In this document: in pieces, positions 1-45,240 of the stretch
Layout of the letters: every line of letters starts with the position of its first letter
Numbering within the stretch: position 1 is the stretch's first letter
From: Cordylochernes scorpioides
Lineage: Eukaryota; Arthropoda; Arachnida; Pseudoscorpiones; Chernetidae
Length of the DNA stretch: 64,000 nucleotides
Reading direction: 5' to 3'
Assembly (NCBI GenBank): GCA_030710605.1
Contig: CP092877.1
Span: 40,718,406-40,782,405 of the forward strand
The notes under the pieces: generated by a model
Databases searched by the model: none
What the model was told of the DNA's origin: nothing
Seen by the model: only the letters and a program-made list of their open reading frames with translations
Position numbers and translations under genes: made by a program

Positions 1-17
1 GATTGTTGATGGTGTCT

Positions 18-394
18 TAAAATAAGAACATTAAGCCTCCAGGGAAAAGTTTCTTTTAAAAATATTTTTTATTTAAAAATCTCTCAAGCTTTCGGGCAAG
101 AAAGCCCTTCTACGGAAGAAAATATCTTACATCATTTTAACCCCAATAAAATAAGATTTAAAATTAAATAAAGTGCTTTTGTTGTTTACATTTGTTTCAA
201 TGCAGAATCAACGCGGGCTTCTGTTGTGCGTGCCTTCGAGTTTGCTATTCCAAGGCGATATCTTCACTTGGGGGTTATGGGGTGGGTTCAGGGATATGAT
301 GGATTCTATGAGAAGTCTCTGTAGTCTATTGGGGATGTTGGAGTAATGGGTCTTTGGTTCTGATAGGGAGAAGGAAAGGCCTGTTTCTCTTATA
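18..394 (-). mobile_element. 5'-truncated Penelope-like element, 3' end only
   Basis: The minus strand encodes the tail of a GIY-YIG type ORF (residues like LLIESIISRNHKSINRI), close to the C-terminus of the larger Penelope-like element at 3899-4304. It is followed by a 3' UTR with a hammerhead-like GCCCGAAAGC segment near 85-115. The insertion is bounded by a 12 bp direct repeat TTGATGGTGTCT at 6-17 and 395-406, so the target duplication is visible. The host sequence is a LINE tail. Strong 5' truncation is normal for target-primed retrotransposition. Confidence 0.75.
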
Positions 395-540
395 TTGATG
401 GTGTCTGCTGGGGAAGAGTAGAGCTCATCAATGGATTAGTCAATACAGCCAATAATGTGTTTTTGGGATTGAAGGTTGAGAATTGCACTTAGTACATAGT
501 GGGAAAACCTTGCAACCATTCTGGAAAGTCATTGTCCATA
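395..540 (-). mobile_element. LINE ORF2 3' tail fragment
   Basis: Read on the minus strand this resumes the LINE sequence interrupted at 17. It matches the better preserved plus-strand copy at 32113-32310, which encodes a CxxC...HxxxC motif typical of LINE ORF2 C-termini. The fragment stops where the SINE at 541 begins. It is non-coding debris here. Confidence 0.6.
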
Positions 541-845
541 GAGGGGGGGGTCAGTGAAAGGATGGTCTAAACAGATGGTTTCCCACCACTACGACCCGGG
601 TTTGATTCCCGCATTGGGCACTTTTTTCTGATTTGAAAAAAAAAAAATACTCCAATGGCTCCCGATTCTTGCAAAAGTCCAACCCCACCAGCAAGTGCAA
701 GTAACCAAACGGGGCTCTGGCATATTTGTAAGTGCAAAGTAGAACTGCTTTTCACATGTGTAGACATGTGGTGCACTTAAGTAAAGCAGTCGTTAACTAC
801 CCACCATGATTATCATGGCCTGTACCATGTGTACTTGGGATAAAT
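541..845 (+). mobile_element. tRNA-derived SINE
   Basis: The head carries a B-box-like GGTTTGATTCC (GGTTCGATTCC in other copies) after an A-box-like GGTCAGTGAAAGGATGG. A poly-A/T linker follows, then a body with two palindromic blocks: CACATGTGTAGACATGTG and CATGATTATCATG. The same unit recurs at 25127-25431, 34628-34862 and 53088-53390, with partial copies near 7458, 9127, 27172, 28240, 35157, 55397 and 60183. No coding capacity is seen. It would be transcribed by RNA polymerase III and moved by a LINE in trans (family knowledge). Confidence 0.75.
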
Positions 846-849
846 AAAA

Positions 850-1022
850 AAGAACCTCTTATCTAAGGAACACCTCTTTGCAGAGTCAAAGGTGTCCTTT
901 AGAAAGAGGTGTGCTCTTCCTGTAGAGCAGCCAATTGGTAAAAAAGATCAATTTTTGGGCAAGAAACTGTTCTTTGTATAGAGTGTTCACTTATGGATGG
1001 TCTACTCTATATGCTTACAGTA
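850..1022. mobile_element. Decayed Tigger-type MITE
   Basis: The text about clearing of 'rapid' repeats of GGACACCTCTTT and GGTGTCCTTTAG resembles the internal part of the MITE at 1162-1319, with mutated termini. The same decayed unit sits at 25437-25612 in copy B. No ORF. Confidence 0.45.
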
Positions 1023-1161
1023 TATATGTGTATATATATATATATTAATTATATATTTTTTATTATTTTCACATATATATATATATGAAAAAACAATAGA
1101 AAAAAATAAAAGATAAGTGGGTCAGGAGATGCCTTCTTTATTTTATATATATATATATATA

Positions 1162-1319
1162 CAGTAGAACCTCCCTGTAAAGGACACCTAATTGCAGAGC
1201 CAAAGGGTCCTTAGGGAGAGGTGTCCTCTTATCGGAGAGTTGCTAAATAGTAAAAATGGTAATTTTGCAAATGAAAACTGTCCTTTATAGAGAGGGTCCA
1301 ATAAAGGGAGGTTTAACTG
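1162..1319. mobile_element. MITE, pogo/Tigger-like, TA target
   Basis: Terminal inverted repeats CAGTAGAACCTCCCT and GGGAGGTTTAACTG are flanked by TA at 1160-1161 and 1320-1321. At 158 bp it has no coding capacity. The CAGT start and TA duplication are typical of Tc1/mariner-superfamily pogo/Tigger derivatives. The orthologous copy lies at 25665-25822 and a relative at 50354-50530. Confidence 0.8.
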
Positions 1320-1440
1320 TATAAATAAATATTTTTTCTCAAATAAAGGTGTAGTTAGTATATTCACAACAATATAAAAGGGTGTTATGCAACTTCCCAC
1401 CTCTGGGGCTATGGAAAAATGTTAGGAACATACAGGTGGG

Positions 1441-1525
1441 TATTAAAAATAAAAAAAGGCATATCCTGACCAGGAGCACATGTGCTTTACAGATGGCAGA
1501 GCGCCATCTGGTGGAACAGAAATCA
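1441..1525 (-). mobile_element. Left arm of hammerhead-type foldback element
   Basis: This is the outer part of the same element that resumes at 6946-7262. Between the two parts lie a LINE tail (1526-2131) and the Penelope insertion. The shared family signature is GGCATATCCTGACC at the edge and CAGATGGCAGAGCGCCATCTG near the inner side. The duplication GAACAGAAATCA at 1514-1525 marks where the LINE entered. Confidence 0.65.
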
Positions 1526-2131
1526 TCAACAACAAAAAGGCTTTTATTAGGGCCCATTGCCCTGTATGGATTCGCCACACAACAACAAAACAATACAGCA
1601 ATTTCTCTCCCTTTCCCCTTGTGCACGAGTCTTTGTCTGAAAAGAGATTTATTTACACATCTGTTCTGAAACTTTCCTCACTACCTCTTTTGTGTATGAA
1701 TCTATTTACAATTGATCTGTAGAAATTATAGAGTTCTATTGCTATATTTTTCTTTTCTGAAATAGTTCTCAGCGTCTTCAGTGGGTTGCTAAGTCTCCAG
1801 AAGGTGTTTTTAAGAATTTTTTTTTTTTATCTTCACCCAAATATTTGCATTCTATGATATAGTGGGAGATTTCATCAGATATCATATTTCCACAAATCCT
1901 GCAGTGAATTTTTTCCTTTTTGATGATGAGAATATGACTTTATCTAGAGTTGAAGTAATTCTAGTCCGTGCAATGAAGGCTATTATCTTCGATGACAGAT
2001 TCCATGACAAGTATCGTTCTGGCATAAATGAATTACAGAGAAGTTTATAGTTTGAAAAATTTTTTGAATTGTCGAGTCTAGCGAAGTCTTGTTGAATAAG
2101 CTGTTCTATTTTTATTTTCATATTCTTAGGA
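1526..2131 (-). mobile_element. 5'-truncated LINE, ORF2 C-terminus
   Basis: The minus strand encodes a short decayed reading frame with a C-terminal zinc-knuckle-like CRICG...SHYIIEC, as found at the end of many LINE ORF2 proteins. The 3' tail is a short TTG/TGA microsatellite. In copy B the same insertion (26030-26641) is bracketed by an intact 12 bp duplication GAACAGAAATCA. In copy A the right-hand duplication was reused as the target of the Penelope insertion. Frameshifts make it inactive. Confidence 0.65.
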
Positions 2132-2143
2132 GAATAGAAATCA

Positions 2144-2511
2144 GATATCAAAGTAAAACGTTTATGGAGATGAGTATCTTTTATTCTGGTCTTCTCAAGC
2201 TTTCGGGCTTGTCCGCCCTTCTACAGGAGAAACATATACAATATATCGAGAAACTATAACGCCGCCTGATGCTAAAACTATTATGATTCTATGTACATAT
2301 ATATATATACACTAGGATGTTTTTGCATATTATTTTTTACTTAAGATATGTTTTTTATTTGGTTAAGGTATTTATATATTTTACTATTGTTTGTTATATT
2401 TTATGAATTATCTTATAGGTTCGGAATTCTAATATTTAAGTTAGTTTTATAATGGTTATTGGCTATTGCATATAAGTTACTTATATTATTGTTGATATTA
2501 TTAGCTGGTAC
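2144..2511 (-). other. Penelope-like element 3' UTR
   Basis: No ORF. It contains a hammerhead-like block around 2195-2235: on the minus strand a GGGC/GCCC stem is followed by GAAAGCTTGAG. The same block occurs at 85-120, 24615-24650 and, on the plus strand, 49655-49690 and 62590-62630. The CTGANGA half is degenerate here, so self-cleavage is doubtful. The rest is AT-rich. Confidence 0.5.
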
Positions 2512-2669
2512 TAGGATATATTGTTAAGAAAAAGGCATCTCCTTATCGTGCAACTGAAAGTTGCTGATGGCTGGCGCCATCTATCGGAATAAATATCAAC
2601 TATTCTCGTTGATTTTTAATTATTCCAGAATTGGCCAAATACCCATTCTTGATTAATCAAGAAAAGCTA

Positions 2670-2711
2670 ACCACGGACGCGTTTCGGGCTGTTGGCCCTC
2701 ATCAGCGTGGT
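2670..2711 (-). ncRNA. Hammerhead ribozyme motif (inverted unit)
   Basis: The minus strand reads a 6 bp stem I (ACCACG/CGTGGT), the CTGATGA core, stem II GGGC/GCCC with a CAACA loop, GAAA, a short stem III ACGCGT and cleavage base C. All conserved core bases are present. Stem III is self-complementary and very short, which in known type I hammerheads favours cleavage as dimers. Confidence 0.8.
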
Positions 2712-2971
2712 GCAAGCTGTACCTCAACGACCAAAAAATTGGTCATTAAGGCATCCTGAAAAATCATGAAACGGGTAGTTAAGGCCAGAATTGCGTGAGG
2801 ACGCTACACAATGTGAAAAAATAGCACAAATATAACATTGTACTGAGATAAGGTGCATAAATTAAGAAAAAGGCATCTCCTTATCGTGCAACTGAAAGTT
2901 GCTGATACCCGTTTCATGATTTTTCAGGATGCCTTAATGACCAATTTTTTGGTCGTTGAGGTACAGCTTGC

Positions 2972-3013
2972 ACCACGCTGATGAGGGCCAACAGCCCGAA
3001 ACGCGTCCGTGGT
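2972..3013 (+). ncRNA. Hammerhead ribozyme motif, direct unit 1
   Basis: Stem I ACCACG (2972-2977) pairs with CGTGGT (3008-3013). The core CTGATGA is at 2978-2984, stem II GGGC/GCCC at 2985-2997 and GAAA at 2998-3001. Stem III is the palindrome ACGCGT, and predicted cleavage follows C3007. No core mismatch was seen. Confidence 0.8.
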
Positions 3014-3309
3014 TAGCTTTTCTTGATTAATCAAGAATGGGTATTTGGCCAATTCTGGAATAATTAAAAATCAACGAGAATAGTTGATATTTATTCCGAT
3101 AGATGGCGCCAGCCATCAGCAACTTTCAGTTGCACGATAAGGAGATGCCTTTTTCTTAATTTATGCACCTTATCTCAGTACAATGTTATATTTGTGCTAT
3201 TTTTTCACATTGTGTAGCGTCCTCACGCAATTCTGGCCTTAACTACCCGTTTCATGATTTTTCAGGATGCCTTAATGACCAATTTTTTGGTCGTTGAGGT
3301 ACAGCTTGC

Positions 3310-3351
3310 ACCACGCTGATGAGGGCCAACAGCCCGAAACGCGTCCGTGGT
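3310..3351 (+). ncRNA. Hammerhead ribozyme motif, direct unit 2
   Basis: Same sequence and spacing as unit 1, exactly 338 bp downstream. Predicted cleavage between neighbouring units would release 338 nt RNA monomers (inference). Confidence 0.8.
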
Positions 3352-3647
3352 TAGCTTTTCTTGATTAATCAAGAATGGGTATTTGGCCAATTCTGGAATA
3401 ATTAAAAATCAACGAGAATAGTTGATATTTATTCCGATAGATGGCGCCAGCCATCAGCAACTTTCAGTTGCACGATAAGGAGATGCCTTTTTCTTAATTT
3501 ATGCACCTTATCTCAGTACAATGTTATATTTGTGCTATTTTTTCACATTGTGTAGCGTCCTCACGCAATTCTGGCCTTAACTACCCGTTTCATGATTTTT
3601 CAGGATGCCTTAATGACCAATTTTTTGGTCGTTGAGGTACAGCTTGC

Positions 3648-3689
3648 ACCACGCTGATGAGGGCCAACAGCCCGAAACGCGTCCGTGGT
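3648..3689 (+). ncRNA. Hammerhead ribozyme motif, direct unit 3
   Basis: Third direct copy, again 338 bp downstream, with intact CTGATGA, GAAA and pairing stems I and II. Confidence 0.8.
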
Positions 3690-3898
3690 TAGCTTTTCTT
3701 GATTAATCAAGAATGGGTATTTGGCCAATTCTGGAATAATTAAAAATCAACGAGAATAGTTGATATTTATTCCGATAGATGGCGCCAGCCATCAGCAACT
3801 TTCAGTTGCACGATAAGGAGATGCCTTTTTCTTAATTTATGCACCTTATCTCAGTACAATGTTATATTTGTGCTATTTTTTCACATAGGATATATTGT

Positions 3899-4304
3899 GT
3901 TATATGTTTCGGGCAAGTCTATTTTTCTATTGATGCTATTGTGTTTTCTGGATAATAAAGATTCAATTATAAGCCTTTGATATTTGCTGTTTATGTTATT
4001 GTAATGTATTATGAGTTCTTCTAATGCGAAAGTGTGGCCTGTTTCTTTGCAGTGTTGGAAAATTAGGGATCTATTGTCTTGATTTATTATGTTGCGTTTA
4101 TGTTCATATATTCTATTGCTGACTCTCCTTCCTGTCTCCCCCACGTATTTGGCTTGGCAGTTGTTGCATTCTATGGAATATATTGCTTCTTTTTTGTTAG
4201 TGGGTTTTATGATATTAGAATTATTTTTAGATAGTGGATTTTTAATGATGGAGCCTATGTTAGGGGAATTACTGTAATGTGTTTGGATGCCGAAGTTTTT
4301 TAAG
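3899..4304 (-). pseudogene. Penelope GIY-YIG endonuclease region
   Basis: Encoded on the minus strand. A cysteine pair (CNNCQ) is followed by YVGETGRRVSNRIYEHKRNI, the typical GIY-YIG nuclease core of Penelope-like elements. A conserved IIESLLSRKH tail follows. The frame runs into the inserted hammerhead array, where it meets a stop, so the natural C-terminus is displaced. This domain would nick the target DNA during insertion. Confidence 0.8.
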
Positions 4305-4306
4305 TA

Positions 4307-4479
4307 CAGTCGAACTTGGATAATTCGAACCCCAAGGGACCGTAAAAAAATTCGAATTATCCAAAAATTCGAATTAAAGATGTTTTGAATAAAGGCTTAA
4401 GGCTTCTAGGGACCAAGATAAATATTCGAATTAAAGAGGTTTTCGAATTAAAGAAGTTCGAATTATCCAAGTTCTACTG
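4307..4479. mobile_element. MITE in Penelope ORF, TA target
   Basis: Termini CAGTCGAACTTGGATAATTC and a near-complementary right end finishing TTCTACTG, with TA at 4305-4306 and 4480-4481. Internal TTCGAATT repeats, no ORF. A decayed relative lies at about 46173-46333. It separates the reverse transcriptase from the endonuclease part. Confidence 0.8.
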
Positions 4480-4481
4480 TA

Positions 4482-5128
4482 GTTGGCTATTGTTGTAGCT
4501 GTTTGTGAGTATGGAATGTAACATATTGCTCTGTAAATATCTGTGGTTTTGTTTATTGGGTTATTGATTGTTATATTTTTGTGGAAATGTTTTAATATAA
4601 AGGTAATTGGGTATCCTGCTTGCTGGAGATTATTTATGATGTTCTGTGTTTCAATCATTTTTGAATTCTGTTGCGAGCAATGGGTGTGTATTCTTTTGGT
4701 TAGTGTTTTAATTGTGTTTATCTTATGGCTTAGTGGGCAATATGAGGTGAAATGTATATAATTTGGTTCGAAACTTGGCTTGTAGTATACGGAGGTATGT
4801 AATCTGTTTTGTGACCTTATGATATTAATGTCTAAGAATGGTAGTTTATTGTTTTTTTCAAATTCTATTGTAAATTTGATTTTAGGGTGGTAGTTATTTA
4901 ATGAGGTTAATATGTGGTTAACTTTGTTAGCTGTGCATATACAGAATATGTCGTCTATGTATCTTTTATATATTATTATGTCTGTAGGGAATTGTGTAGT
5001 TATCCATTTGTCTATTGTGTTCATAACTATTTCGGCTAACGGGGAAGATAGTGGGCTGCCCATGGGCGATCCTTTTATTTGTTTATATGATTGTGAGTTG
5101 AAATTAAAGATGTTCGATTTTAATGATA
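4482..5128 (-). pseudogene. Penelope reverse transcriptase, C-terminal half
   Basis: Minus-strand frame containing QIKGSPMGSPLSSPLAEIV, the YIDD catalytic box and LPFLDINI, which are reverse transcriptase motifs typical of Penelope-like elements. The N-terminal half lies beyond the 1 kb Tigger-like insertion at 6145-6797. Both halves still have long open frames, so the insertion seems fairly recent. Confidence 0.85.
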
Positions 5129-5130
5129 TA

Positions 5131-6142
5131 CAGTAAAACCCCTCTATAGTGAACCCCAATGGGACAGAGCTTTTGGTTCACTATAGCCAAGGTTCACTAT
5201 AGCCACGGTTTGGCTATTTTTTTTTACTTTTCAAAAATTTTAGACTGTATAATTAAAAAACAGCTATACACACAAGTAGAGGCTGCCTCTTAATAGTGGT
5301 CACTTTATTTTAATTCCCTTAATTGACTAATTTCCTTATATTAATACTGAATAATAATAGAAATCATTAGATAATAGGTTCTTCTTATGATTAACATACA
5401 TGTACCTCTATGTCTAAGTTAAAAATCAAGACAAATCCTAGGCAAAGTTTTATTAAATATATATTCAAAGATATGAAATGATTTTAAAACATCATTATCA
5501 CATTATATAATACAATTTTTACTTGAAAAAATGGCTCTAATACCTTGTTGTTTCAAAGCATTCTTCCAAGCATTGCACCATTCAAATAAAGTTAGTGTTT
5601 TTCTTCCATTTCATGTTTCCCCATATTCTTCTAGGTCTAGATTTCGGTTTTTTTTTTTTTTAACCTGCCATGCAAAACATTGCTGACTTTAAAATGCCTT
5701 TGTTTTCTTCATTTTGGAAGCCATTTGCATTTTTATATTTCAAATTTAATGGATGCAAAGATATTCTAATTAATAAAAAGTATAATGTGTAGAAATTTAT
5801 ACAACATACAGCAAAAATAAAGTGCAAAAATCAAACAAACAATGCCGCTAAATTTATTGTTTTGAAATCGCGATCCGCGAGCTTTAAACATGCTCAAAAT
5901 TTTGTTTTTTAATTTTTTTTTTAAATTACAATTCTAAGTTCGTTATAAGCATAGTATTTTTAATAGTTTTTATCATTTTGGGACCCGAAATAGGTTCGTT
6001 ATAGGGGTAGTTCGTTATTCTAAAAATCGCAAAGTTCGTTATAACGATGGTATTTTCAATGGAATGGAATTGGGAATCGGCGTGGGTTCGTTATAAGGGA
6101 AGGTTCGTTATATCCAGGGTTCGTTATAGCGGGGTTTTACTG
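5131..6142. mobile_element. Tigger-like non-autonomous DNA transposon inside Penelope RT
   Basis: Terminal inverted repeats start CAGTAAAACCCCTCTATAG and end GCGGGGTTTTACTG, with TA at 5129-5130 and 6143-6144. It is 1012 bp with no intact transposase. Related copies are at 9830-11015 (cut by the gap) and 29648-31262. The terminal sequence and TA duplication fit the pogo/Tigger group. Confidence 0.85.
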
Positions 6143-6144
6143 TA

Positions 6145-6870
6145 TCTATTAATTCTATTATTTTGTTTATGACTGTTTGGTCTAATCTATTTTCTATTAA
6201 CAAGGATTTAGTGTTTTCTAATATTAATTGGTGAGGGAGACTAGGATAGAGAGCCTCAACATCGAAAGATACTATTAAGTGATGGTTTTCTATATTTGTG
6301 TTTAAAATTTCTTGTATGAATGTGGGTATGTTTGCTATTGATTGAGTGGGTGTGTGTGTTCTGACTAATGGCTGTAGGAATTTGGTTAAAAACTTAGCTA
6401 TTGGAGCAATGGGGGATAGGTAAAATGCGACTATTGGTCTTAGCGGTATATTTTGCTTGTGCAATTTTGGTTTTCCGTATATGTGGGCTTCAGAATCGCT
6501 ATTATTAAGAAATGCTTTATGTTCGTCTTCGGTGATTATTTTGGATTTCTTCAATCTATTGATGTCCTTTTTTATATTTAAGTAGACTTGGTTTCTCTCA
6601 GTATCTGTCAGAGGCTCGAAGGTGGTGCTATCTTTTAGTATGTTTTCCATTTTGTTTTGGTATTCTGTTTTATTCATTATTACTGTGGTTCCTCCTTTGT
6701 CTGCTTGGGTTATTACTATTTCTTTCCTGTTTTTTAAGTTTCTTAGAATATGTTTCTCTCTTGGGTTTCGTAGTGGCTGGTTTGGTGGGTGATTCAATGT
6801 TCTGGAAACTTTTTGTCTTATTTTTTCTTTTTCTTGGGTGTTCAGTTTCGATATCGCTACTTCTATTCCG
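6145..6870 (-). pseudogene. Penelope reverse transcriptase, N-terminal half
   Basis: The minus-strand frame contains ITQADKGGTTVIMNKTEY, YGKPKLHK...PLRPIV and SFDVEALYPSLPH, the early reverse transcriptase motifs of Penelope-like elements. A methionine at 6797 opens the longest frame, but homologous-looking sequence continues upstream to about 6870. The frame is cut by the Tigger-like insertion at 6143. Confidence 0.85.
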
Positions 6871-6945
6871 CTGATTATCTTTATATAGATATATAATAGA
6901 AATATACTCTAGAAATATAAATTAATCTCTATATAATAGAAATCA

Positions 6946-7262
6946 ACTAAACATTGATTTAGCCTGTTCCCTGATATTTAGCCAACCCAATTTCTTAATA
7001 AATCAAGAAAAGCCATTCACGAACGTGTTTCGCGCTGTTGGCGCTCGTTAGCATGACAACTTTTCTTGATTTATCAAGAAATTGGGTTGGCCAAATATCA
7101 GGGAACAGGCTAAATCAATGTTTAGTTGATTTCTGTTCCACCAGATGGCGCTCTGCCTTCTGTAAAGCACATGTACTCATGGTCAGGATATGCCTTTTTT
7201 ATTTTCAATATCAACACCTGACCTTTTTATTAATTTTTTTTTTTCTATTATTTTTTCACAGG
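6946..7262. mobile_element. Hammerhead-type foldback element, inner and right part
   Basis: Continuation of the element begun at 1441. A minus unit meets a plus unit near 7062 (inverted arms around TTTCTTGATTTATCAAGAAA). The hammerhead block on the minus strand reads CTAACGA, stem GCGC/GCGC, GAAA, so the essential G of CTGANGA is changed to A and cleavage is not expected. The element ends in a poly-T run followed by CACAGGT. The same state is found in copy B (26655-26968). Confidence 0.65.
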
Positions 7263-7457
7263 TAGATATACTTTAGGCAATTCTCAATGTTTTGGTGACT
7301 CGCACGGCCATCTTCCTCAGGTTGAAAATTGATTAAACTGTTTTCTTTCTCCGATAAATTCCTAACAACAAGAGTAACAGATTATTGAATAGGTATACAC
7401 TCCCTATAATAGTTATCACACAAATCCCCATTTTGGAAATTCTTTTTAACAAATTGT
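7263..7457. other. Non-coding spacer with Penelope-tail-like motif
   Basis: No ORF. Around 7290-7322 the minus strand reads CCTGAGGAAGATGG followed 20 bases later by AAAACATTG, a pattern resembling degenerate hammerhead ends of Penelope-like elements. Otherwise featureless. Duplicated at 26969-27171. Confidence 0.3.
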
Positions 7458-7544
7458 TTTATTGGATGGTGGAGGATTGGTAAAACCATTTCAACAGAAG
7501 TGACCCAGGATTGAATCCTGGCACTTTATTTATTATAATTATTA

Positions 7545-7690
7545 TTTTTTTTTTATGATAAAGCAAAATTTGGATTATAGATTATAATACAAGAAAATAA
7601 AACCTAAACACAAGGTAATAAGACCAAATTCAAATAAATAAATAGTGTGTAAATTTGGATTTGGTCTAATTACCTTGTATTTATAATCTA
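7545..7690. repeat. Foldback repeat (AATAAGACC... arms)
   Basis: Inverted arms containing CAAGGTAATAAGACCAAAT face each other across about 25 bases. Relatives lie at 27262-27396 and 23911-24020. No ORF. Confidence 0.6.
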
Positions 7691-8912
7691 CTAGACGAAT
7701 GACCCGGGCAACGCCCGGGTTTACCCGATTAAATGTTTTATTCAAACACTATTTGTTACAATTATAAATTGGCACCGTGGATGTCACTCTTGTGAAACGT
7801 CCCGCTCCAAACTTTACATGTACATTAGGTCAGCTGATATTACCTCCCATCTTCACCGCTAGAGGCGCTGCTCGCGAGCAAAAGGGCAAACTCGACGAAT
7901 ATTCGGGATAGAGACCTGAAAATTTCACTATAAGTTTTTCCAGATTCTACTCTATATACTGTTAAAATTTCAGTCAGATTAGTTACGATATAAATCTTCA
8001 AATAGAGCGAGCGTCTATAAATATTTCGATTTAGATCAAGTATTCTAATTATTAAGCGAACACTATTATTAATAAAATTTTGAGAAGATTTCGATTTTAA
8101 ACGTATTTATAACCTTGATAGAGGGCGCTGTTCGTGAGCTAAGTAGAATAATTTGAATATATAGTTTTAATATTTAATTTATATATAATTTAAAATAGCC
8201 TATCGTTTTCCTCGTATTTTTTTACCTATGTATGGAAATTTTGGTACTGTAAAAAAAAACTTTGCTTCAATGATATAAAAAAAGAAACACCCAGGCTAAG
8301 TTTCGAACCAAGGTTGTGGAAATACGAAGCCGTACACCTAACCATTAAGCTACGCTTGGCATCATAAATATTCGCATGTAAAGCTATTTCAGGCCTTACA
8401 TATTTCTAACGACCTTTTTGAAATAGGTTTTTGAAACATGGAAATTATAATACTTCAAATAAATAGAAATAGTGAACACAAATAAAACATACCAAATATT
8501 TTGAATTAGAGCAGTTATTTTAAACGGCGAATTAGAGCAGTTATATCTAAAAATAAAAATATATAAATCTTCAAATCGAGCTAGCGTCTATAAATATTTC
8601 GATTTAGATCAAGTATTCTAAACGTATGTGTTATTAAGCGAACTATTATTAATAAAATATTGAGAAGATTTAGATTTTAAACATATTTATAACCTTTTAG
8701 TACTTGATAGAGGGCGCTGTTCATGAGCTAAGTAGAATAATTTGAATATATAGTTTTAATAATTGATTTATATATATTTTAAAATAGCCTATCGTCTTCC
8801 CCGTATTTTTTTATCTATGTATGGAAATTTTGGTTTGAATTAGTGAACTACTGCGAATTTGTATACCAGACATACAAACAAACATACAAACATTCATTTT
8901 TATATATATAGA
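7691..8912 (+). repeat. CCCGGG-headed interspersed repeat
   Basis: Starts CTAGACGAATGACCCGGG and has the hairpin CCCGGGCAACGCCCGGG. It contains conserved blocks GTTACAATTATAAATTGGC and CACTCTTGTGAAACGTCCC, and ends with ACATTCATTTTTATATATAT. Copies in both orientations occur at 27397-28028, 39652-41830, 47502-48883, 56834-57085, 20520-21175 and 58700-59362. No coding frame is seen. The TA-rich 3' tail suggests a non-LTR-type retroposon, but its class is not clear to me. Confidence 0.6.
8290..8360 (-). other. tRNA-like sequence
   Basis: The minus strand has an A-box-like TAGCTTAATGGTTAGG and a B-box-like GGTTCGAAAC, with partially pairing ends (CCAAGC/GCCTGG, one mismatch). It lies inside the CCCGGG-headed repeat and is absent from the copy B version. 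Probably a SINE head or a pseudo-tRNA. The anticodon arm is not convincing. Confidence 0.35.
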
Positions 8913-9126
8913 TAATCCAAATTGTGCCATATCAAAATAAGACCTAATCCAAATAATTTAATAGTGTGTGACGTTTTGGCAACAGCATTGTTACCATCAT
9001 CAGACAAAAGAATTTTTTTTTTAATTTTGTTTGATGATGGTAACAATGCTGTTGCCAAAACGTCACACACTATTAAATTATTTGGATTAGGTCTTATTTT
9101 CTTGTATTTATTTTATTTTTTTTAAG
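8913..9126. mobile_element. Palindromic element with paired hammerhead-like arms
   Basis: Two roughly 75 bp inverted arms share ATTTAATAGTGTGTGACGTTTTGG. Each arm carries CTGATGATGGTAAC ... GTTGCCAAAACGTC (TTTGATGA on the right arm). GAAA is mutated to AAAA in this copy, while copy B (28032-28228) retains GAAA in its left arm. No ORF. Confidence 0.6.
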
Positions 9127-9470
9127 AAAAATTACTCCAATAGTTTCTGATTCTTGACACCAGTGAGTGCAAGTAACTAAAAACCTGGTACAGTTGGCGT
9201 ACAAAAGTTGAATTGCTTTCTATGCACCTGTGGTGCACTTGCAGTAAAAGCAATTGCTAATTACTTACCATGATTATCATTAACTGTACTGCATGAACTA
9301 GAGATGATAATAAAATATACATCAATCATCTTTACACAGAGTGAGTGTATATGCCACGTCCTGCTTTTCACATGTGTAGACATGTGGTGCACTTACAGTT
9401 AAAGCAGTCGCCTACTTCTACCCACCATGATTATCATGGCCTGTACCACTTGTACTAGGGATAAGCCAAA
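9127..9470 (+). mobile_element. Two partial SINE bodies in tandem
   Basis: First a diverged body (CACCTGTGGTGCACTTGCAG ... CATGATTATCATTAACTG), then a better copy (CACATGTGTAGACATGTG ... ATTATCATGGCCTG). The tRNA-like head is missing. Duplicated at 28240-28580. Confidence 0.6.
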
Positions 9471-9829
9471 AAAATATATATATATATTATATAATCTAAA
9501 ATGCAAATATTTTATTTTTTGAAAACATGTATTTTACTTTCATCATTGACTATTCTTTTATTTTTGACCATAGATTTAGAACATAACACTTTGAATATAT
9601 TTGTTGTAAATATGTATAGTTCACCTACCTATTTTTTTAATTCACGAATATAGAATTCATTTTATAAATTCTATATTACTGTGAAAAATAATTCTATGTG
9701 TAATTTGCTTAAAGTAAATAAAAATAAAAACTACTTGATAAGTAAATAATTATCTTTTCTATTTTCACGACTGCACCTTCAATTCTCTATCTTTTTCAAC
9801 AACAAAACAAAATATTCATAACATATATA
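9471..9829. repeat. AT-rich repeat, no gene
   Basis: Non-coding, very AT-rich. The same stretch occurs at 29296-29647 and, more diverged, at 57815-58130, so it is a repeat of unknown type. Confidence 0.5.
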
Positions 9830-11015
9830 CAGTAAAACCCCTCTATAGTGAATCCCAATGGGACAGAGCTTTTGGTTCACTATAGCCACGGTTTGGCCAT
9901 TTTTTTAACTTTTCTAAATTTTTAGACCGTATAATCAAAAAACAGCCATACAAACAGGAAAAGGCAACCACTTAATATTGGTCACTTTGTTTTAATTCCC
10001 TAAATTGACTTATTTCTTTACAGCAATGCTGAATATCAAAAGAAGTCATTTGATAATAGGTTCTTCTTATCATTAGCATACATGTTTATATATAAACCTA
10101 TGTATTATTTAAAAATTAAGCCAAATTCCCTAGGCAAAACATTATTAATTATATATTTAAAAGGTATAAGAGTATTTCAGAACATCTTTCTCAAATAATA
10201 TAATACTAAATTTATTTGAAAAATGCCTCTAATACCTTGTTGTTTGAAAGTGAAAAGTGATATTTAAAAATCAGAATTGTGTTAAAATATTGTTATTTCC
10301 ATCAAAGGAATAAAGCTCCGTGTGTTCTGAATCAATTGAGGATGAATCAAAAGTATCCAATTCAGAAAAATCGGACGCGAAACATGTTGATACGATAGCG
10401 CGATCGGTAAAATTGCGAATAAAAAACGCCAATTTGCAAACACAAAATCGGTGGTGAAACGGCCGGCCGGGGGAATATCCGCGAACCCCGAACGAGTCAT
10501 ATACCTAACAAGAATTCCATTCTAAAAATAGAACTGTAGTGGTAGTTTTTGAGAATTTATAAGTCGATTTGTTTGTGGCCAATGAGACACGGGGAACTTG
10601 GGGGAAATGTTTTTTTTTTTTTTCTTCTTCCAATTCCCGTTTCCACATATTCTTCTGAAGTTTATATTAAATTTTGTTTTTAACCTGTTATTCAAACCAT
10701 TTCTGGCTTTAAAATTATTTGTAATTATTTTTCAGCCTAGGTTAAACTTGATATAGAAGGCTTTTAAAAGGGCATGCTGCCACTGTTTTTTTTTTTTTTT
10801 AGAACGCCATTGTTTGTTTCTTTTCTTCCATTTCAAAATTGTCTAATGCAAAGATATTCTATTGAATAAAAGTATAATATGTAAAAATGTATACAACATA
10901 CAGCAAAAATAGAATGGAAATGAAAACAAACAATTACGCTAAATTTTTGTTTTGAAATCGCGATCCGTGAGCTGAAACATGCTCAAAATTTTGTTGTTTT
11001 AAAATTTTTTTAAAT
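9830..11015. mobile_element. Tigger-like element, truncated by gap
   Basis: Left terminus CAGTAAAACCCCTC is preceded by TA. The interior matches 29648-31046, and the right end falls in the N gap. Only spurious short frames. Confidence 0.75.
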
Positions 11016-24407: not shown

Positions 24408-24566
24408 TTCAACAAACAATAATTGAGTGCACAATAATTCGACCAAGTTTGCATCTCCCAACCTCTACAAATATTAATTTGGCCAATCGATAATTAGACT
24501 TCTTCTGTCTTATCTCCACTCAATCATATTAGGTTATCAAGCTTGTAGAGATTGTTGATGGTGTCT

Positions 24567-24978
24567 TAAAATAAGAACATTAAGCCTCCAGGGAAAAGTT
24601 TCTTTTAAAAATCTCTCAAGCTTTCGGACAAGAAAGCCCTTCTACGGGAGAAAATATCTTACATCATTAAAACCCCAATAAAATAAAATTTGAAATTAAA
24701 TAAAGTGCTTTTGTTGTTTACATTTGTTTCAATGCAGAATCAACGCGGGCTTCTGTTGCGCGTGCCTTCGAGTTTGCTATTCCAAGGCGATATCTTCACT
24801 TGGGGGTTATGGGGTGGGTTCAGGGAATATTATGTTATAAATTTCCAGAATTCTGTTAATGCTCTTGTGATTTCTGGATATGATGGATTCTATGAGAAGT
24901 CTCTGTAGTCTATTGGGGATGTTGGAGTAATGGGTCTTTGGTTCTGATAGGGAGAAGGAAAGGCCTGTTTCTCTTATA
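24567..24978 (-). mobile_element. 5'-truncated Penelope-like element, copy B
   Basis: Same fragment as 18-394 with about 50 extra bases. The duplication TTGATGGTGTCT is at 24555-24566 and 24979-24990. The minus strand encodes the GIY-YIG protein tail. Confidence 0.75.
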
Positions 24979-25126
24979 TTGATGGTGTCTGCTGGGGAAG
25001 AGTAGAGCTCATCAATGGATTAGTCAATACAGCCAATAATGTGTTTTTGGGATTGAAGGTTGAGAATTGCACTTAGTACATAGTGGGAAAACCTTGCAAC
25101 CATTCTGGAAAGTCATTGACCATAGA

Positions 25127-25431
25127 GGGGGGTCAGTGAAAGGATGGTCTAAACAGATGGTTTCCCACCACTACGACCTGGGTTCGATTCCCGCATTGGG
25201 CACTTTTTTCTGATTTGAAAAAAAAAAAAAATACTCCAATGGCTCCCGATTCTTGCAAAAGTCCAACCCCACCAGCAAGTGCAAGTAACCAAACGGGGCT
25301 CTGGCATATTTGTAAGTGCAAAGTCTAACTTCTTTTCACATGTGTAGACATGTGGTGCACTTAAGTAAAGCAGTCGCTAACTACCCACCATGATTATCAT
25401 GGCCTGTACCATGTGTACTTGGGATAAATAA
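25127..25431 (+). mobile_element. tRNA-derived SINE, copy B
   Basis: Head with GGTTCGATTCC B box (intact here), poly-A linker, then the two-palindrome body. Counterpart of 541-845. Confidence 0.75.
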
Positions 25432-25664
25432 AAAATAACCTCTTATCTAAGGAACACCTCTTTGCAGAGTCAAAGGTGTCCTTTAGAAAGAGGTGTGCTC
25501 TTCCTGTAGAGCAGCCAATTGGTAAAAAAGATCAATTTTTGGGCAAGAAACTGTTCTTTGTATAGAGTGTTCACTTATGGATGGTCTACTCTATATGCTT
25601 ACAGTATATATGTGTATATATATATTAATTTTATATTTTTAATTATTTTTCACATATATATATG

Positions 25665-25822
25665 CAGTAGAACCTCCCTGTAAAGGACACCTAATTGCAG
25701 AGCCAAAGGGTCCTTAGGGAGAGGTGTCCTCTTATCGGAGAGTTGCTAAATAGTAAAAATGGTAATTTTGCAAATGAAAACTGTCCTTTGTAGAGAGGCT
25801 CCAATAAAGGGAGGTTTAACTG
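25665..25822. mobile_element. MITE, pogo/Tigger-like, copy B
   Basis: Counterpart of 1162-1319 with the same termini; the left TA is mutated to TG. Confidence 0.7.
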
Positions 25823-25941
25823 TATAAATAAATATTTTTTCTCAAATAAAGGTGTAGTTAGTATATTCACAACAATATAAAAGGGTGTTATGCAACTTCC
25901 CACCTCTGGGGCTATGGAAAAAATGTTAGGAACATACAGGT

Positions 25942-26029
25942 GGGTATTAAAAATAAAAAAAGGCATATCCTGACCAGGAGCACATGTGCTTTACAGATGG
26001 CAGAGCGCCATCTGGTGGAACAGAAATCA
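25942..26029 (-). mobile_element. Left arm of hammerhead-type foldback, copy B
   Basis: Outer arm of the element that resumes at 26654, with GAACAGAAATCA at 26018-26029 duplicated at 26642-26653 around the LINE tail. Confidence 0.65.
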
Positions 26030-26641
26030 TCATCATCAACAAAAAGGCTTTTATTAGGGCCCATTGCCCTGTATGGATTCGCCACACAACAACAAAACAA
26101 TACAGCAATTTCTCTCCCTTTCCCCTTGTGCACGAGTCTTTGTCTGAAAAGATATTTATTTACACATCTGTTCTGAAACTTTCCTCGCTACCTCTTTTGT
26201 GTATGAATCTATTTACAATTGATCTGTAGAAATTATAGAGTTCTATTGCTATATTTTTCTTTTCTGAAATAGTTCTCAGCGTCTTCAGTGGGTTGCTAAG
26301 TCTCCAGAAGGTGTTTTTAAGAGTTTTTTTTTAAATCTTTCTTCACCCAAATATTTGCATTCTATGATATAGTGGGAGATTTCATCAGATATCATATTTC
26401 CACAAATCCTGCAGTGATTTTTTTCCTTTTTGATGATGAGAATATGACTTTATCTAGAGTTGAAGTAATTCTAGTCCGTGCAATGAAGGCTATTATCTTC
26501 GATGACAGATTCCATGACAAGTATCGTTCTGGCATAAATGAATTACAGAGAAGTTTATAGTTTGAAAAAAATTCCGAATTGTCGAGTCTAGCGAAGTCTT
26601 GTTGAATAAGCTGTTCTATTTTTATTTTCATATTCTTTGGA
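26030..26641 (-). mobile_element. 5'-truncated LINE, copy B
   Basis: LINE ORF2 C-terminal relic with tail microsatellite (TGA)n. It is flanked by a perfect 12 bp duplication, so this is a clear target-primed insertion into the foldback element. Confidence 0.7.
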
Positions 26642-26653
26642 GAACAGAAATCA

Positions 26654-26968
26654 ACTAAACATTGATTTAGCCTGTTCCCTGATATTTAGCCAACCCAATT
26701 TCTTAATAAATAAAGAAAAGCCATTCACGAACGTGTTTCGCGCTGTTGGCGCTCGTTAGCATGACAACTTTTCTTGATTTATCAAGAAATTGGGTTGGCC
26801 AAATATCAGGGAACAGGCTAAATCAATGTTTAGTTGATTTCTGTTCCACCAGATTGCGCTCTGCCATCTGTAAAGCACATGTCCTCCTGGTCAGGATATG
26901 CCTTTTTTATTTTCAATATCAACACCTGACCTTTTTATTATTATTTTTTTCTATTATTTTTTCACAGG
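26654..26968. mobile_element. Hammerhead-type foldback, inner part, copy B
   Basis: Head-to-head units with the hammerhead core mutated to CTAACGA on the minus strand, as in copy A. Confidence 0.6.
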
Positions 26969-27171
26969 TAGATATACTTTAGGCAATTCTCAATGTTTTG
27001 GTGACTCGCACGGCCATCTTCCTCAGGTTGAAAATTGATTAAACTGTTTTCTTTCTCCAATAAATTCCTAACAACAAGAGTAACAGATTATTGAATAGGT
27101 ATACACTCCCTATAATAGTTATCACACAAATCTCCATTTTGGAAATTCTTTTTAACAAATTGTTTTATTGG

Positions 27172-27396
27172 ATGGTGGAGGATTGGTAAAACCATTTCAA
27201 CAGAAGTGACCCAGGATTGAATCCTGGCACTTTATTTATTATAATTATTATTTTTTTTATGATAAAGCACAATTTGGATTATAGGATTATAATACAAGAA
27301 AATAAAACCTAAACACAAGGTAATAAGACCAAATCCAAATAAATAAATAGTGTGTAAATTTGGATTTGATCTTATTACCTTGTATTTATAATCTAC
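27172..27396. repeat. SINE head and foldback repeat, copy B
   Basis: GGATGGTGGAGGATTGG with ATTGAATCC (degenerate B box), then the AATAAGACC foldback. Counterpart of 7458-7690. Confidence 0.5.
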
Positions 27397-28028
27397 TAGA
27401 CGAATGACCCGGGCAACGCCCGGGTTTACCCGATTAAATGTTTTATTCAAACACTATTCGTTACAATTATAAATTGGCGCCGTGGATGTCACTCTTGTGA
27501 AACGTCCCGCTCCAAACTTTACATGTACATTAGGTCAGCTGATATTACCTCCCATCTTCATCGCTAGAGGCGCTGCTCGCGAGCAAAAGGGCAAACTCGA
27601 CGAATATTCGGGATAGAGATCTGAAAATTTCACTATAAGTTTTTCCAGATTCTACTCTATATACTGTTAAAATTTCAGTCAGATTAGTTACGATATAAAT
27701 CTTCAAATCGAGCGAGCGTCTATAAATATTTCGATTTAGATCAAGTATTCTATTTATTAAGCGAACTATTATTAATAAAATTTTGAGAAGATTTCGATTT
27801 TAAACGTATTTATAACCTTGATAGAGGGCGCTGTTCGTGAGCTAAGTAGAATAATTTGAATATATAGTTTTAATATTTAATTTATATATAATTTAAAATA
27901 GCCTATCGTCTTCCCCGTATTTTTTTACCTATGTATGGAAATTTTGGTTTGAATTAGTGAACTACTGCGAATTTGTATACCGGACATATATACAAACAAA
28001 CATACAAACATTCATTTTTTATATATAG
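27397..28028 (+). repeat. CCCGGG-headed repeat, copy B
   Basis: Shorter than its copy A partner: the tRNA-like internal block (8240-8700) is missing here. Ends ACATTCATTTTTTATATATAG. Confidence 0.6.
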
Positions 28029-28031
28029 ATA

Positions 28032-28228
28032 ATCCAAATTGTGCCATTTCAAAATAAGACCTAATCCAAATAATTTAATAGTGTGTGACGTTTCGGCAAC
28101 AGCATTGTTACCATCATCAGACAAAAGAATAATTTTTTTTTAAATTTTGTTTGATGATGGTAACAATGCTGTTGCCAAAACATCACACACTATTAAATTA
28201 TTTGGATTAGGTCTTATTTTCTTGTATT
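28032..28228. mobile_element. Palindromic hammerhead-like element, copy B
   Basis: Inverted arms as at 8913-9126. The left arm on the minus strand (28084-28126) reads CTGATGA, a TGGTAAC/GTTGCC-type stem, then GAAACGTC, that is all hammerhead core bases with a zero-loop ACGT stem III. The right arm has TTTGATGA and AAAACATC and looks dead. Confidence 0.65.
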
Positions 28229-28239
28229 TATTTTTTTTT

Positions 28240-28580
28240 TTAAGAAAAATTACTCCAATAGTTTCTGATTCTTGACACCAGTGAGTGCAAGTAACTAAAA
28301 ACCTGGTACAGTTGGCGTGCAAAAGTTGAATTGCTTTCTATGCACCTGTGGTGCACTTGCAGTAAAAGCAATTGCTAATTACTTACCATGTTTATCATTA
28401 ACTGTACTGCATGAACTAGAGATGATAATAAAATATACATCAATCATCTTTACACAGAGTGAGTGTATATTCCACGTCCTGCTTTTCACATGTGTAGACA
28501 TGTAGTGCACTTACAGTAAAAGCAGTCGCCTACTTCTACCCACCATGATTATCATGGCCTGTACCACTTGTCCTAGGGAT
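28240..28580 (+). mobile_element. Two partial SINE bodies, copy B
   Basis: Counterpart of 9127-9470. Confidence 0.55.
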
Positions 28581-28586
28581 AAGCCA

Positions 28587-28615
<29 letters not shown>

Positions 28616-28617
<2 letters not shown>

Positions 28618-28708
28618 GACAAGGGTCGCCTCTCCCGTCAAAATAGACGTCTAAAACAGACGTCTATTTTTAGACGTCTATTTTGACGGGAGAGGCGACC
28701 CTTGTCTC
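28616..28708. repeat. 93 bp near-perfect palindrome
   Basis: GAGACAAGGGTCGCCTCTCC at the left and its reverse complement at the right, with internal AGACGTCTA repeats. It would form a long hairpin. Its TCTCCCGTCAAA edge is shared with the element at 32572-33015. Confidence 0.8.
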
Positions 28709-28744
28709 TTTAGATCATTTTCCTCCCGGCAAAATTTCCATCTA

Positions 28745-29296
28745 TATATATATATATTAAAAATAAAGAAGGCATCTCCTGACCACGAGCACATGTGCTT
28801 TTTAGATGGCAGAGCGCCATCTAGTGGAGCAAAAATAAACTAAACATTTATTTAGCTTGCTCCGTGATATTTGGCCAACCCAATTTCTTGATAAATCAAG
28901 AAAAGCCATCCACAAACGTGTTTCGCGCTGTTGGCGCTCGTCAGCGTGGAGAAGGCTGTAACCACTGCGACCAAAAAAGATTTTTGGTCCCAATGGCTTC
29001 CCGAAAAATCAAGAAATGGGTATTTAAGGCCAAATTTGCGTAAAGACGCTTAACACATGAAAAAACAATAGAAAACAGCGCAAAACGCGTTCGTGGATGG
29101 CTTTTCTTGATTTATCAAGAAATTGGGTTGGTCAAATATCACGGAGCAAGCTAAATAAACGTTTAGTTTATTTTTGCTCCACTAGGTGGCGCTCTGCCAT
29201 CTAAAAAGCACATGTGCTCGTGGTCAGGAGATGCCTTCTTTATTTTTAATATCAACACCTGACCCACTTATCTTTTATTTTTTTTCTATTGTTTTT
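28745..29296. mobile_element. Head-to-head hammerhead element, second family
   Basis: A minus unit (28745 to about 29075) is joined to a plus partial unit (to 29296). Both ends carry GGCATCTCCTGACC (inverted) and the AGATGGC(A/G) block. It sits in a TA microsatellite present in copy A without it (near 9475). No ORF. Confidence 0.75.
28909..28950 (-). ncRNA. Hammerhead ribozyme motif, second family
   Basis: The minus strand reads stem I TCCACG, core CTGACGA, stem II GCGC/GCGC with loop CAACA, GAAA, a minimal stem III ACACGT, cleavage base T, then TGTGGA closing stem I with one G-T pair. All core bases are intact. Confidence 0.7.
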
Positions 29297-29647
29297 TCAT
29301 ATATATATTATATAATCTAAAATGCAAATTTTTTTTTTTTGAAAACATGTATTTTACTTTCATCATTGACTATTCTTTTATTTTTGACAATAGATTTAGA
29401 ACATAACACTTTGAATATTTGTTGTAAATATGTATAGTTCACCTACCTATTGTTTTAATTCACGAATATAGAATTCATTTTATAAATTCTATATTACTGT
29501 GAAAAATAATTCTATGTGTAATTTGCTTAAAGTAAATAAAAATAAAAACTACTTGATAAGTAAATAATTATCTTTTCTATTTTCACGACTGCACCTTCAA
29601 TTCTCTATCTTTTTCAACAACAAAACAAAATATTCATAACATATATG

Positions 29648-31262
29648 CAGTAAAACCCCTCTATAGTGAACCCCAATGGGACAGAGCTTTTGGTTCACTA
29701 TAGCTACGGTTTGGCCATTTTTTAAACTTTTCTAAATTTTTAGACTGTATAATCAAAAAACAGCCATACAAACAGGAAAAGGCAACCACTTAATATTGGT
29801 CACTTTGTTTTAATTCCCTAAATTGACTTATTTCTTTACAGCAATGCTGAATATCAAAAGAAGTCATTTGATAATAGGTTCTTCTTATCATTAGCATACA
29901 TGTTTATATATTAAGAAAAAGGCATCTCCTTATCGTGCAACTGAAAGTTGCTGATGGCTGGAATAATTAAAAATCAACGAGAATAGTTGATATTTATTCC
30001 GATAGATGGCGCCAGCCATCAGCAACTTTCAGTTGCACGATAAGGAGATGCCTTTTTCTTAATTTATGCACCTTATCCCAGTACAATGTTACATTTGTAC
30101 TATTTTTTCACATGTTTATATATAAACCTATGTATTATTTAAAAATTAAGCCAAATTCCCTAGGAAAAACATTATTAATTATATATTTAAAAGGTATAAG
30201 AGTATTTCAGAACATCTTTCTCAAATAATATAATACTAAATTTATTTGAAAAAATGCCTCTAATACCTTGTTGTTTGAAAGTGAAAAGTGATATTAAAAA
30301 TCATAATTGTGTTAAAATATTGTTATTTCCATCAAAGGAATAAAGCTCCGTGTGTTCTGAATCAATTGAGGATGAATCAAAAGTATCCAATTTAGAAAAA
30401 CCGGACGCGAAACATGTTGATACGATAGCGCGATCGGTAAAATTGCGAATAAAAAACGCCAATTTGCAAACACAAAATCGGTGGTGAAACGGCCAGCCGG
30501 GGGAATATCCACGAACCCTGAACGAGTCATATACCTAACAAGAATTCCATTCTAAAAATAGAACTGTAGTGGTAGTTTTTAAGAATTTATAAGTCGATTT
30601 GTTTGTGGCCAATGAGACACGGGGAACTTGGGGGAAATGTTTTTTTTCTTCTTTCAATTCCCGTTTCCACATATTCTTCTGAAGTGTATATTAAATTTTG
30701 TTTTTAACCTGTTATTCAAACCATTTCTGGCTTTAAAATTATTTGAAATTATTTTTTAGCCTAGGTTAAACTTGATATAGAAGGCTTTTAAAAGGGCATG
30801 CTTCCACTGTTTTTTTTTTTTAGAACGCCATTGTTTGTTTCTTTTCTGTATTTTTCTTCCATTTCAAAATTGTCTAATGCAAAGATATTCTATTAAATAA
30901 AAGTATAATATGTAAAAATGTATACAACATACAGCAAAAATAGAATGGAAATGAAAACAAACAATTAAGCTAAATTTTTGTTTTGAAATCGCGATCCGTG
31001 AGCTGAAACATGCTCAAAATTTTGTTGTTTTAAAATTTTTTTAAATCACAATTTTAAGTTCGTTATAAGCATGGTATTTTTAATAGATTTTATCATTTTG
31101 GGACCGAAAATAGGTTTGTTATAGGGGTAATTCATTATTTTAAAAATCGCAAAGTTCGTTATAACAATGGTATTTTCAATGGAATGGAATTGGGAATCGC
31201 CGTGGGTTCGTTATAAGGGAAGGTTCGCTATATCCAGGGTTCGTATTAGCGGGTTTTTACTG
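29648..31262. mobile_element. Tigger-like element upstream of TIMM8
   Basis: Starts CAGTAAAACCCC and ends GGGTTTTTACTG, followed by TA at 31263-31264. It contains a 199 bp secondary insertion (29911-30109). The right end lies 70 bp before the TIMM8 start codon. No intact transposase. Confidence 0.8.
29911..30109. mobile_element. 199 bp foldback insertion with 13 bp duplication
   Basis: Flanked by ACATGTTTATATA at 29898-29910 and 30110-30122; copy A has a single ACATGTTTATATA at the matching site. About 50 bp at the left are the inverse of the bases around 30015-30062. Sequence identity to the 338 bp array units shows it belongs to the same family, but the hammerhead itself is missing. Confidence 0.85.
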
Positions 31263-44536: not shown

Positions 44537-44925
44537 GATTACAAACTCTCTTTAATATGTTAATATGGTGTAAATATAGAGAACATAATAGAATAATAGA
44601 CTTTGGAAATTACAACGACCATATGCAAATGTTTTTTATCACTAATAAATCCATTTAGATTTTTTTTACATAACTAAGCTATTTGAAGGCTGATTATATT
44701 TAATATATTATTTTCATTATTTCTATTTATAAGTATATATTTTTTATATTTTAACTTGTTACATGTGGAAGACCTATTTTAAATTCATTTTCTATGTGCG
44801 TACCTAATGTAAATGTACACGTAGTGAGAGTTGGGGATATCAAAACTAAGACTTTGCAATAAATATTTTGAATGTTTAAATATATTTCGAGTCTTTCTTT
44901 TAAAGTCATGCTCATCTATATATAA
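44537..44925. other. 3' flank of Merlin-like ORF
   Basis: AT-rich with AATAAA near 44860, no frame. No inverse of upstream sequence was recognised that could be a terminal repeat. Confidence 0.4.
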
Positions 44926-45097
44926 TAAAAATAAAGGTCAGGTGTTGGTATTAAAATCAAAAAAGGCATATCCTGACCACGTTCACAAGAACTTTTAGAA
45001 GGCAGAGCGCCATCTAGTAGAACAGAAATAAACTAAACGTTGATTCAGCCTGTTCCCTGATATTTGGCCAACCCATTTTCATGATAAATCAATCTTG
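44926..45097 (-). mobile_element. Hammerhead-family fragment, second family
   Basis: TAAAATCAAAAAAGGCATATCCTGACC edge (in parts) and GGCAGAGCGCCATCTAG block as in 28745-29296; breaks off before the ribozyme position. Confidence 0.55.
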
Positions 45098-45111
45098 ATA
45101 TATATATATAT

Positions 45112-45240
45112 ATATTTAAAAAAGGAGGCATATCCTGACCAGGATGGCAGAGCGCGTTTAGTTTATTTTGTTCCACTAGATGGCGCTCTACCATCTAGAA
45201 ATGCTCATGTGAGCATGGTCAGGATATGCCTCCTTTATTT
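45112..45240. mobile_element. Short head-to-head foldback, second family
   Basis: AGGAGGCATATCCTGACCA at the left, its inverse at the right; an inner jump from GGCAGAGCGC to GTTTAGTTTATTTTG has deleted the hammerhead. Lies in a TA microsatellite. Confidence 0.6.

Follow-up and report, generated by a model that had tools for sequence, protein, structure and literature searches.

The arrangement of retrozyme units at positions 2525-3885 of a 64,000-nucleotide stretch of the pseudoscorpion Cordylochernes scorpioides genome (assembly GCA_030710605.1, contig CP092877.1, positions 40,718,406 to 40,782,405, hereafter the window), with one arm inverted and placed head-to-head to the other, appears to be what insertion of this retrozyme family normally yields in its genome. 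As such, the inverted unit points to the machinery of Penelope-like elements (PLEs). We consider it probable that the array is an animal-type retrozyme without long terminal repeats (non-LTR), inserted by the reverse transcriptase (RT) and endonuclease (EN) of a PLE. The evidence comes from the anatomy of the array, from a survey of related insertions and from PLEs of this genome, which bear the same signature.

Anatomy of the array and its hammerheads

At window 2525-3885 a member of a retrozyme family has recently inserted. The insertion measures 1361 bp and lies between two direct copies of TAGGATATATTGT (Table 1), and its target is a PLE open reading frame (ORF) on the minus strand, within its last codons. 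When the flanks are read through a single copy of the repeat, they give back the C-terminus ...PETYNTIYPSTS, which is also the ending of PLE copies L042 and L043. The perfect 13-bp duplication inside a PLE that an earlier note on this DNA had reported is borne out. The inverted segment comprises 383 nt that are 100% complementary to 3115-3497, or 1.13 units, and shares one base with the direct arm at the inner junction. The direct part holds 2.9 copies of a 338-bp unit at 100% identity, the third copy ending at about unit position 305 of 338. The earlier description of one inverted unit followed by three 338-bp units needs correction in both counts.

Four hammerhead cores, one inverted and three direct, are present in the array. 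A strict descriptor (CTGANGA, stem II of at least 4 bp, GAA-A and a 6-bp stem I) has five matches in the window, these four plus a minus-strand one at 28909-28950, against none in 100 dinucleotide shuffles. The description in the earlier note of a retrozyme-like array with hammerhead cores holds. A covariance-model check, suggested in the same note, gave a mixed result: Rfam Hammerhead_HH9 run on 1.6 kb matches all four cores (26.5 bits, E 6e-4) and stays below its gathering score of 52, and no Rfam hammerhead family attains its gathering score when the window is scanned. The sequence ACGCGT, proposed as stem III, is there; it is a palindrome without room for a loop, so that pairing within one molecule is limited to an A-U pair that closes CGCG, and 6 bp are possible only between two molecules. 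No exact match to the hammerhead core was found in a collection of viral contigs.

Folding of the unit, also suggested earlier, gave a strongly self-paired RNA (minimum free energy -119.6 kcal/mol, z -7.65 against 100 shuffles). Within each direct unit a hairpin holds in its loop a position that we call site T (after 3159 in the first direct unit). The stem of this hairpin varies compensatorily between subfamilies (GATAAGG/CCTTATC, GGTCAGG/CCTGACC, GATCAGG/CCTGATC) and is broken in a few copies. The unit has a GC content of 0.405 and appears non-coding, with a longest open frame of 49 amino acids over three turns. A type I hammerhead in every unit (with an Rfam score below gathering), tandem non-coding units within about 150-450 bp and with less than 50% GC, highly self-paired RNA and a target duplication longer than 4 bp (13 bp here) all characterize animal non-LTR retrozymes, and an animal-type non-LTR retrozyme is the best explanation for the array.

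Arms, ends and junctions of insertions across the genome

We surveyed the source genome (2.62 Gb, 24 contigs), in which the unit has at least 165 matches; scoring covered 40 of 1253 candidates, which favours close copies. The survey set consisted of 33 other listed places and six related elements of the window, 39 altogether. Two segmental duplicates (L015 and L021) were excluded, a second, duplicated copy within L020 was omitted, and six elements (L018, L038, L040 and three in the window) had no intact or reached end. Among the 31 complete independent insertions, 28 are two-armed and head-to-head and three have one arm. We therefore rejected the inverted unit as a peculiarity of the window copy; the earlier note had recommended a look at further copies and their orientation. 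The opposite order, with the direct arm first and the inverted arm last, is found in none of the 28.

The outer ends of all 28 two-armed insertions pair one end at site T (unit position 254-259) with the other at a second site, B (300-311, or the homologous place in the second-subfamily copy RZ-C); no insertion in this informative set has two T or two B ends. Were ends independent at even odds, such pairing would arise by chance with a probability of 4e-9. Site T lies on the left in 17 insertions and on the right in 11, and the sequence between T and B, the "tail", is present at one outer end only in each informative insertion. The ends of L024, L033 and L041 were positioned by eye, and an apparent T/T exception, L040, was dropped, its left end not having been reached. 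Duplications that are not a plain AT run (17 of 28) measure 12-14 bp, with a median of 13; seven further two-armed loci have AT runs of 11-18 bp, the true length of which is unreadable. The duplications of L024 and L031 stand outside this length count, and bases shared by the ends blur exact duplication lengths. Insertion sites are varied and, by eye, AT-rich.

Two paralogous stretches of the window (1-11015 and 24550-31046, 91-98% identical in pieces) differ by several mobile-element insertions and so serve as empty sites. The PLE that hosts the array is flanked by AATAGAAATCA at 2133-2143 and 6935-6945, an 11-bp duplication, and is missing from the paralogous stretch (empty site 26643-26653). 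A second copy of the retrozyme family, RZ-B, has its empty site at 10080-10096, and RZ-C repeats the inverted-plus-direct architecture with T and B ends equivalent to those of the array. Older, truncated or nested relatives, also with inverted arms, lie at about 6936-7260, 44922-45257 and 60460-60662.

These observations bear on the possibility that the palindrome is an assembly error or arose through a later rearrangement of the DNA. Assembly of perfect inverted repeats is difficult, and all units of the array are identical. Against this stand the 28 two-armed insertions, which lie at places judged independent and mostly carry duplications of their own, the empty site of RZ-B in the paralogous copy and the PLE reading frame restored across the array. 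We rejected an assembly artefact as very unlikely, given the many separate loci with their own duplications, and regard error or later rearrangement as hardly credible.

The arms can be long (up to 5007 nt, about 15 units). Units diverge by 0.9% within an arm, 1.0% between opposite arms of one insertion and 2.4% between loci. When majority sequences of arms were compared in the 19 of 21 loci with enough overlap, the two arms of an insertion were 0.84% apart versus 2.5% between loci, and none of 5000 permutations was as low. One locus, L030, shows in its stretch 1837-2706 an arm divergence above most between-locus values, possibly from two RNA templates in one insertion.

Inner ends were analyzed in 20 loci. 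The arms overlap by 1-12 nt at 15 junctions (by 1 nt in four, for which chance suffices) and are separated by gaps of 1-13 nt at five. Every one of the 40 inner ends is more than 5 nt away from the place where the ribozyme is predicted to cut, and cut linear monomers were therefore rejected as the usual template, in favour of a circle or an uncut multimer. The two inner ends of one insertion mostly lie far apart within the unit, so that the junctions are not simple palindromes.

Near identity of the two arms in most loci and the 1-12 shared bases at 15 of 20 junctions would also be expected if a single cDNA from one cut strand snapped back via a few homologous bases and was extended outward with itself as template, which would produce the inverted arm. 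For inverted PLE repeats, PMC3846280 prefers an explanation by self-priming, with an antisense template. Such fold-back does not account for a second arm that ends precisely at the other site, 51 nt away, in all 28 insertions, and the distant inner ends, with junctions that are not simple palindromes, also argue against it. We consider it improbable.

Another way to reach the same topology is twin priming, the exceptional 5' inversion of insertions of long interspersed nuclear elements (LINEs), acting here on retrozyme RNA. In L1 elements, where 5' inversion is accompanied by microhomology at the point of inversion, a minority of insertions show it and the second priming point varies, whereas 28 of 31 insertions here are two-armed, with two fixed points. 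Moreover, the one LINE seen entering retrozymes uses one unit position, unlike the varied AT-rich sites of the retrozyme itself. Twin priming is thus, in our view, highly improbable.

Within retrozyme units, that LINE-like element sits immediately upstream of the hammerhead and joins with its 3' side at unit position 44-51. It is found as cargo within four two-armed insertions (L031, L033, L034 and L035). Six cargos in five loci were analyzed: 11-15 nt of unit sequence are duplicated in four and a small loss is seen in L018a and L031. A gag-like ORF with CCHC knuckles is present in five, open over 411 amino acids in L031 and 419 in L034 and broken elsewhere, and the sixth is an RT-RNase H part; Pfam gave no match for the L034 protein. 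Another 12 gag copies were taken from the best of 101 scored matches; five of them run into a retrozyme unit at the same place, and two pairs among other gag copies have other repeated targets in common.

Penelope-like elements of the same genome and a proposed mechanism

The family of the window PLE (P1) is abundant: 150 of 29371 candidates were scored, and 15 of these 150 matches keep open frames of 785-796 codons. By eye, about two dozen of the matches listed stand in minus-then-plus order with a neighbour no more than 5 kb away, and none in plus-then-minus order. Two frames of 812 codons occur in a second family (P2), which is about 65% identical. Our comparison covered 13 PLE insertions, of which L042-L044 were studied over longer stretches and the other ten at their ends. 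In all eight that are informative, one end is tailless and the other tailed. The tail is about 27-34 nt as measured on L042-L044, and the B end of L054 lies 12-18 nt further out. Of eight insertions with a measured duplication, seven have 12-14 bp (median 13) and L051/52 has 10 by script; that of the window PLE is 11. Each arm of L042 extends past the other, which makes fold-back impossible there.

The retrozyme and PLEs thus have in common the arrangement of arms, the pairing of ends, the length of duplications and, by eye, AT-rich targets. Involvement of PLE machinery, which the earlier note had brought up, is well supported by this shared insertion anatomy, and not by shared sequence. The sole significant match between unit and PLE copies, at L042 187-239, falls outside the PLE. 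The possibility that the retrozyme is a solo pseudo-long terminal repeat (pLTR) of P1 or P2 was rejected, as it encodes no RT or EN and has no convincing similarity to either, and a motif AGGAGAT seen by eye near a start site of both P1 and the retrozyme was dropped, since in P1 it is seemingly part of a hairpin. Both PLE families carry in their pLTR a hammerhead-like CTGTAGA-stem-GCCCGAAAGC motif in which a conserved A, which we take to be A6 in the usual numbering, is U; it is possibly a variant or inactive ribozyme. No strict CTGANGA core is found in L042-L044.

The anatomy suggests the following series of events. A staggered cut of the target, about 13 bp apart, would free a 3' end on each strand, and both ends would prime reverse transcription of retrozyme RNA, one at site B and the other at T, 51 nt upstream. 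Both cDNAs would traverse the ribozyme, often for several rounds of a 338-nt template that is either circular or an uncut multimer. If each strand primes on RNA, both cDNAs would be antisense and point inward, and joining of their 3' ends, probably at a few shared bases in most cases, must give two head-to-head arms. The architecture would then need no further special step. The inverted unit would then be the arm made on the second target strand. If the locus were transcribed end to end, a long double-stranded RNA would follow, a possible by-product.

Several observations weigh against insertion by PLE machinery in this manner. No convincing sequence similarity exists between the unit and P1 or P2, and so no shared cis-acting sequence; the PLE partner is for that reason named by insertion signature only. 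Three of the complete insertions are one-armed (L026, with a 9-bp duplication, and L028 and L039, with no clear duplication), L025 has its arm pair twice (-+-+), and two duplications are short (L033, 9 bp; L041, 6 by script and about 9 by eye). The arms of L030 are 5% apart, with 36 of 38 comparisons to other loci closer, and in L013, L019 and L020 6-11 of 38 such comparisons are closer than the own arm. The geometry of the retrozyme insertions is compatible with fold-back in 17 of 20 loci, whereas three of 20 are impossible for it in either order. Lastly, five of the 13 PLE insertions are uninformative: in four an end was not found even with wider flanks, and the fifth, C7, is a palindrome (L061/L062/L088/L089) whose arms are 99.7% identical for about 1.45 kb past the usual B on both sides.

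More generally, two-strand rolling-circle reverse transcription might be the rule for animal retrozymes, with one PLE complex offering one circular ribozyme RNA to both cut strands, each at a different entry site 51 nt apart, and the polymerases chasing round the same circle. This proposal is tentative, and we doubt it somewhat more than we believe it. If it is true, the pattern of one tailed and one tailless end would reflect the use of one RNA molecule by each integration complex, PLEs included.

Table 1. Positions of the array, its parts and related features. Coordinates are those of the window unless a locus (L number) is given.
Feature	Position	Strand	Remarks
Host PLE (family P1)	2144..6934	-	Broken by the array and other insertions
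Target-site duplication TAGGATATATTGT, left copy	2512..2524	.	13 bp
Inverted arm, 1.13 units	2525..2906	-	Site T (unit position 254) outermost, unit position 210 innermost
Hammerhead core, inverted arm	2670..2711	-	Rfam HH9 and strict descriptor
Direct arm, 2.9 identical 338-bp units	2907..3885	+	Inner end at unit position 1, outer end at about 305 (site B)
Hammerhead 1, direct arm	2972..3013	+	Cleavage predicted from the core between 3007 and 3008
Hairpin GATAAGG-25 nt-CCTTATC, first direct unit	3136..3174	+	Again at +338 and +676
Tail between sites T and B, first direct unit	3160..3210	+	51 nt
Hammerhead 2, direct arm	3310..3351	+	Rfam HH9 and strict descriptor
Hammerhead 3, direct arm	3648..3689	+	Rfam HH9 and strict descriptor
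Target-site duplication TAGGATATATTGT, right copy	3886..3898	.	13 bp
RZ-C, second-subfamily copy (about 78%)	28757..29300	+	Hammerhead 28909-28950, - strand
RZ-B, second copy of the family	29911..30113	+	98% identical over 156 nt; T left (inverted), B right (direct)
C7 palindrome pieces	L088 25550463-25551930; L089 25557130-25558597		PLE
CTGTAGA-stem-GCCCGAAAGC motif	L042 6763; L043 5249; L044 1323 and 3954	+	PLE
LINE in retrozyme	L018, L031, L033, L034, L035; also L071, L072, L074, L076, L078		Unit position about 18-62 in the first five

Comparison with known systems

The array agrees with animal non-LTR retrozymes, as described in the main text of PMC7229834, in its 338-nt non-coding unit with 40% GC, tandem arrangement, type I hammerhead, duplications longer than 4 bp and coexistence with PLEs. 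The axolotl HHR_Amex1 of the same text has an equally weak palindromic stem III and works better as a dimer. The retrozymes described there are tandem direct repeats, whereas here head-to-head arms with fixed ends are the rule; the terms "inverted", "opposite orientation" and "head-to-head" are absent from that main text. An inverted leading unit, which the earlier note called no part of the usual description, is not peculiar to one copy in this genome. A palindromic stem III expected to need two molecules is also reported for the dimeric minimal hammerheads of PLEs (Lunse 2017 and Cervera 2014, as cited by others); unlike these, the unit resembles retrozyme ribozymes in that its 6-bp stem I contains an internal loop and its stem II measures 4 bp.

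Earlier work named PLEs as likely partners of retrozymes without a diagnostic motif, and a review (PMC7761336) describes animal retrozymes as lacking a conserved motif that would indicate their autonomous partner. Paired T and B ends would be a diagnostic mark linking animal retrozymes to PLE machinery. We found no description of head-to-head retrozymes or paired ends in the retrozyme, hammerhead and PLE literature at title and abstract level (subscription papers and supplements being outside this scope).

Among EN-containing Penelope elements, Pen2a of Adineta vaga has direct copies with an adjacent inverted pLTR and duplications of 8-10 bp in the cases quoted (PMC3846280). Its direct and inverted arrangement, the optional tail of about 31 bp on one inverted end and the AT-rich targets are like those of the retrozyme. 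The same paper reports that Pen1 is mostly without an inverted pLTR and that some copies have no duplication. Pen2a-type PLEs encode RT and a GIY-YIG endonuclease, whereas the retrozyme is non-coding and shows nothing convincing in common with the sequences of P1 and P2. PLEs were already known to have inverted pLTRs with a tail that may be present or absent (PMC3846280). The pairing of T and B ends would provide two exact start sites and turn these poorly understood features of PLEs into a rule for a mechanism to explain.

A biochemical counterpart is the Poseidon element PAc of Anolis (PMC11167929), the purified protein of which cuts and extends both target strands and begins copying internally at two nearby positions that correspond to the genomic "tail"; this speaks for the mechanism proposed above. 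PAc resembles the retrozyme in its hammerhead, its two adjacent internal RT start sites and the cleavage and extension of both strands. It differs in being autonomous and in that no difference in start site between the strands is reported for it in bulk, versus one of each per informative insertion here.
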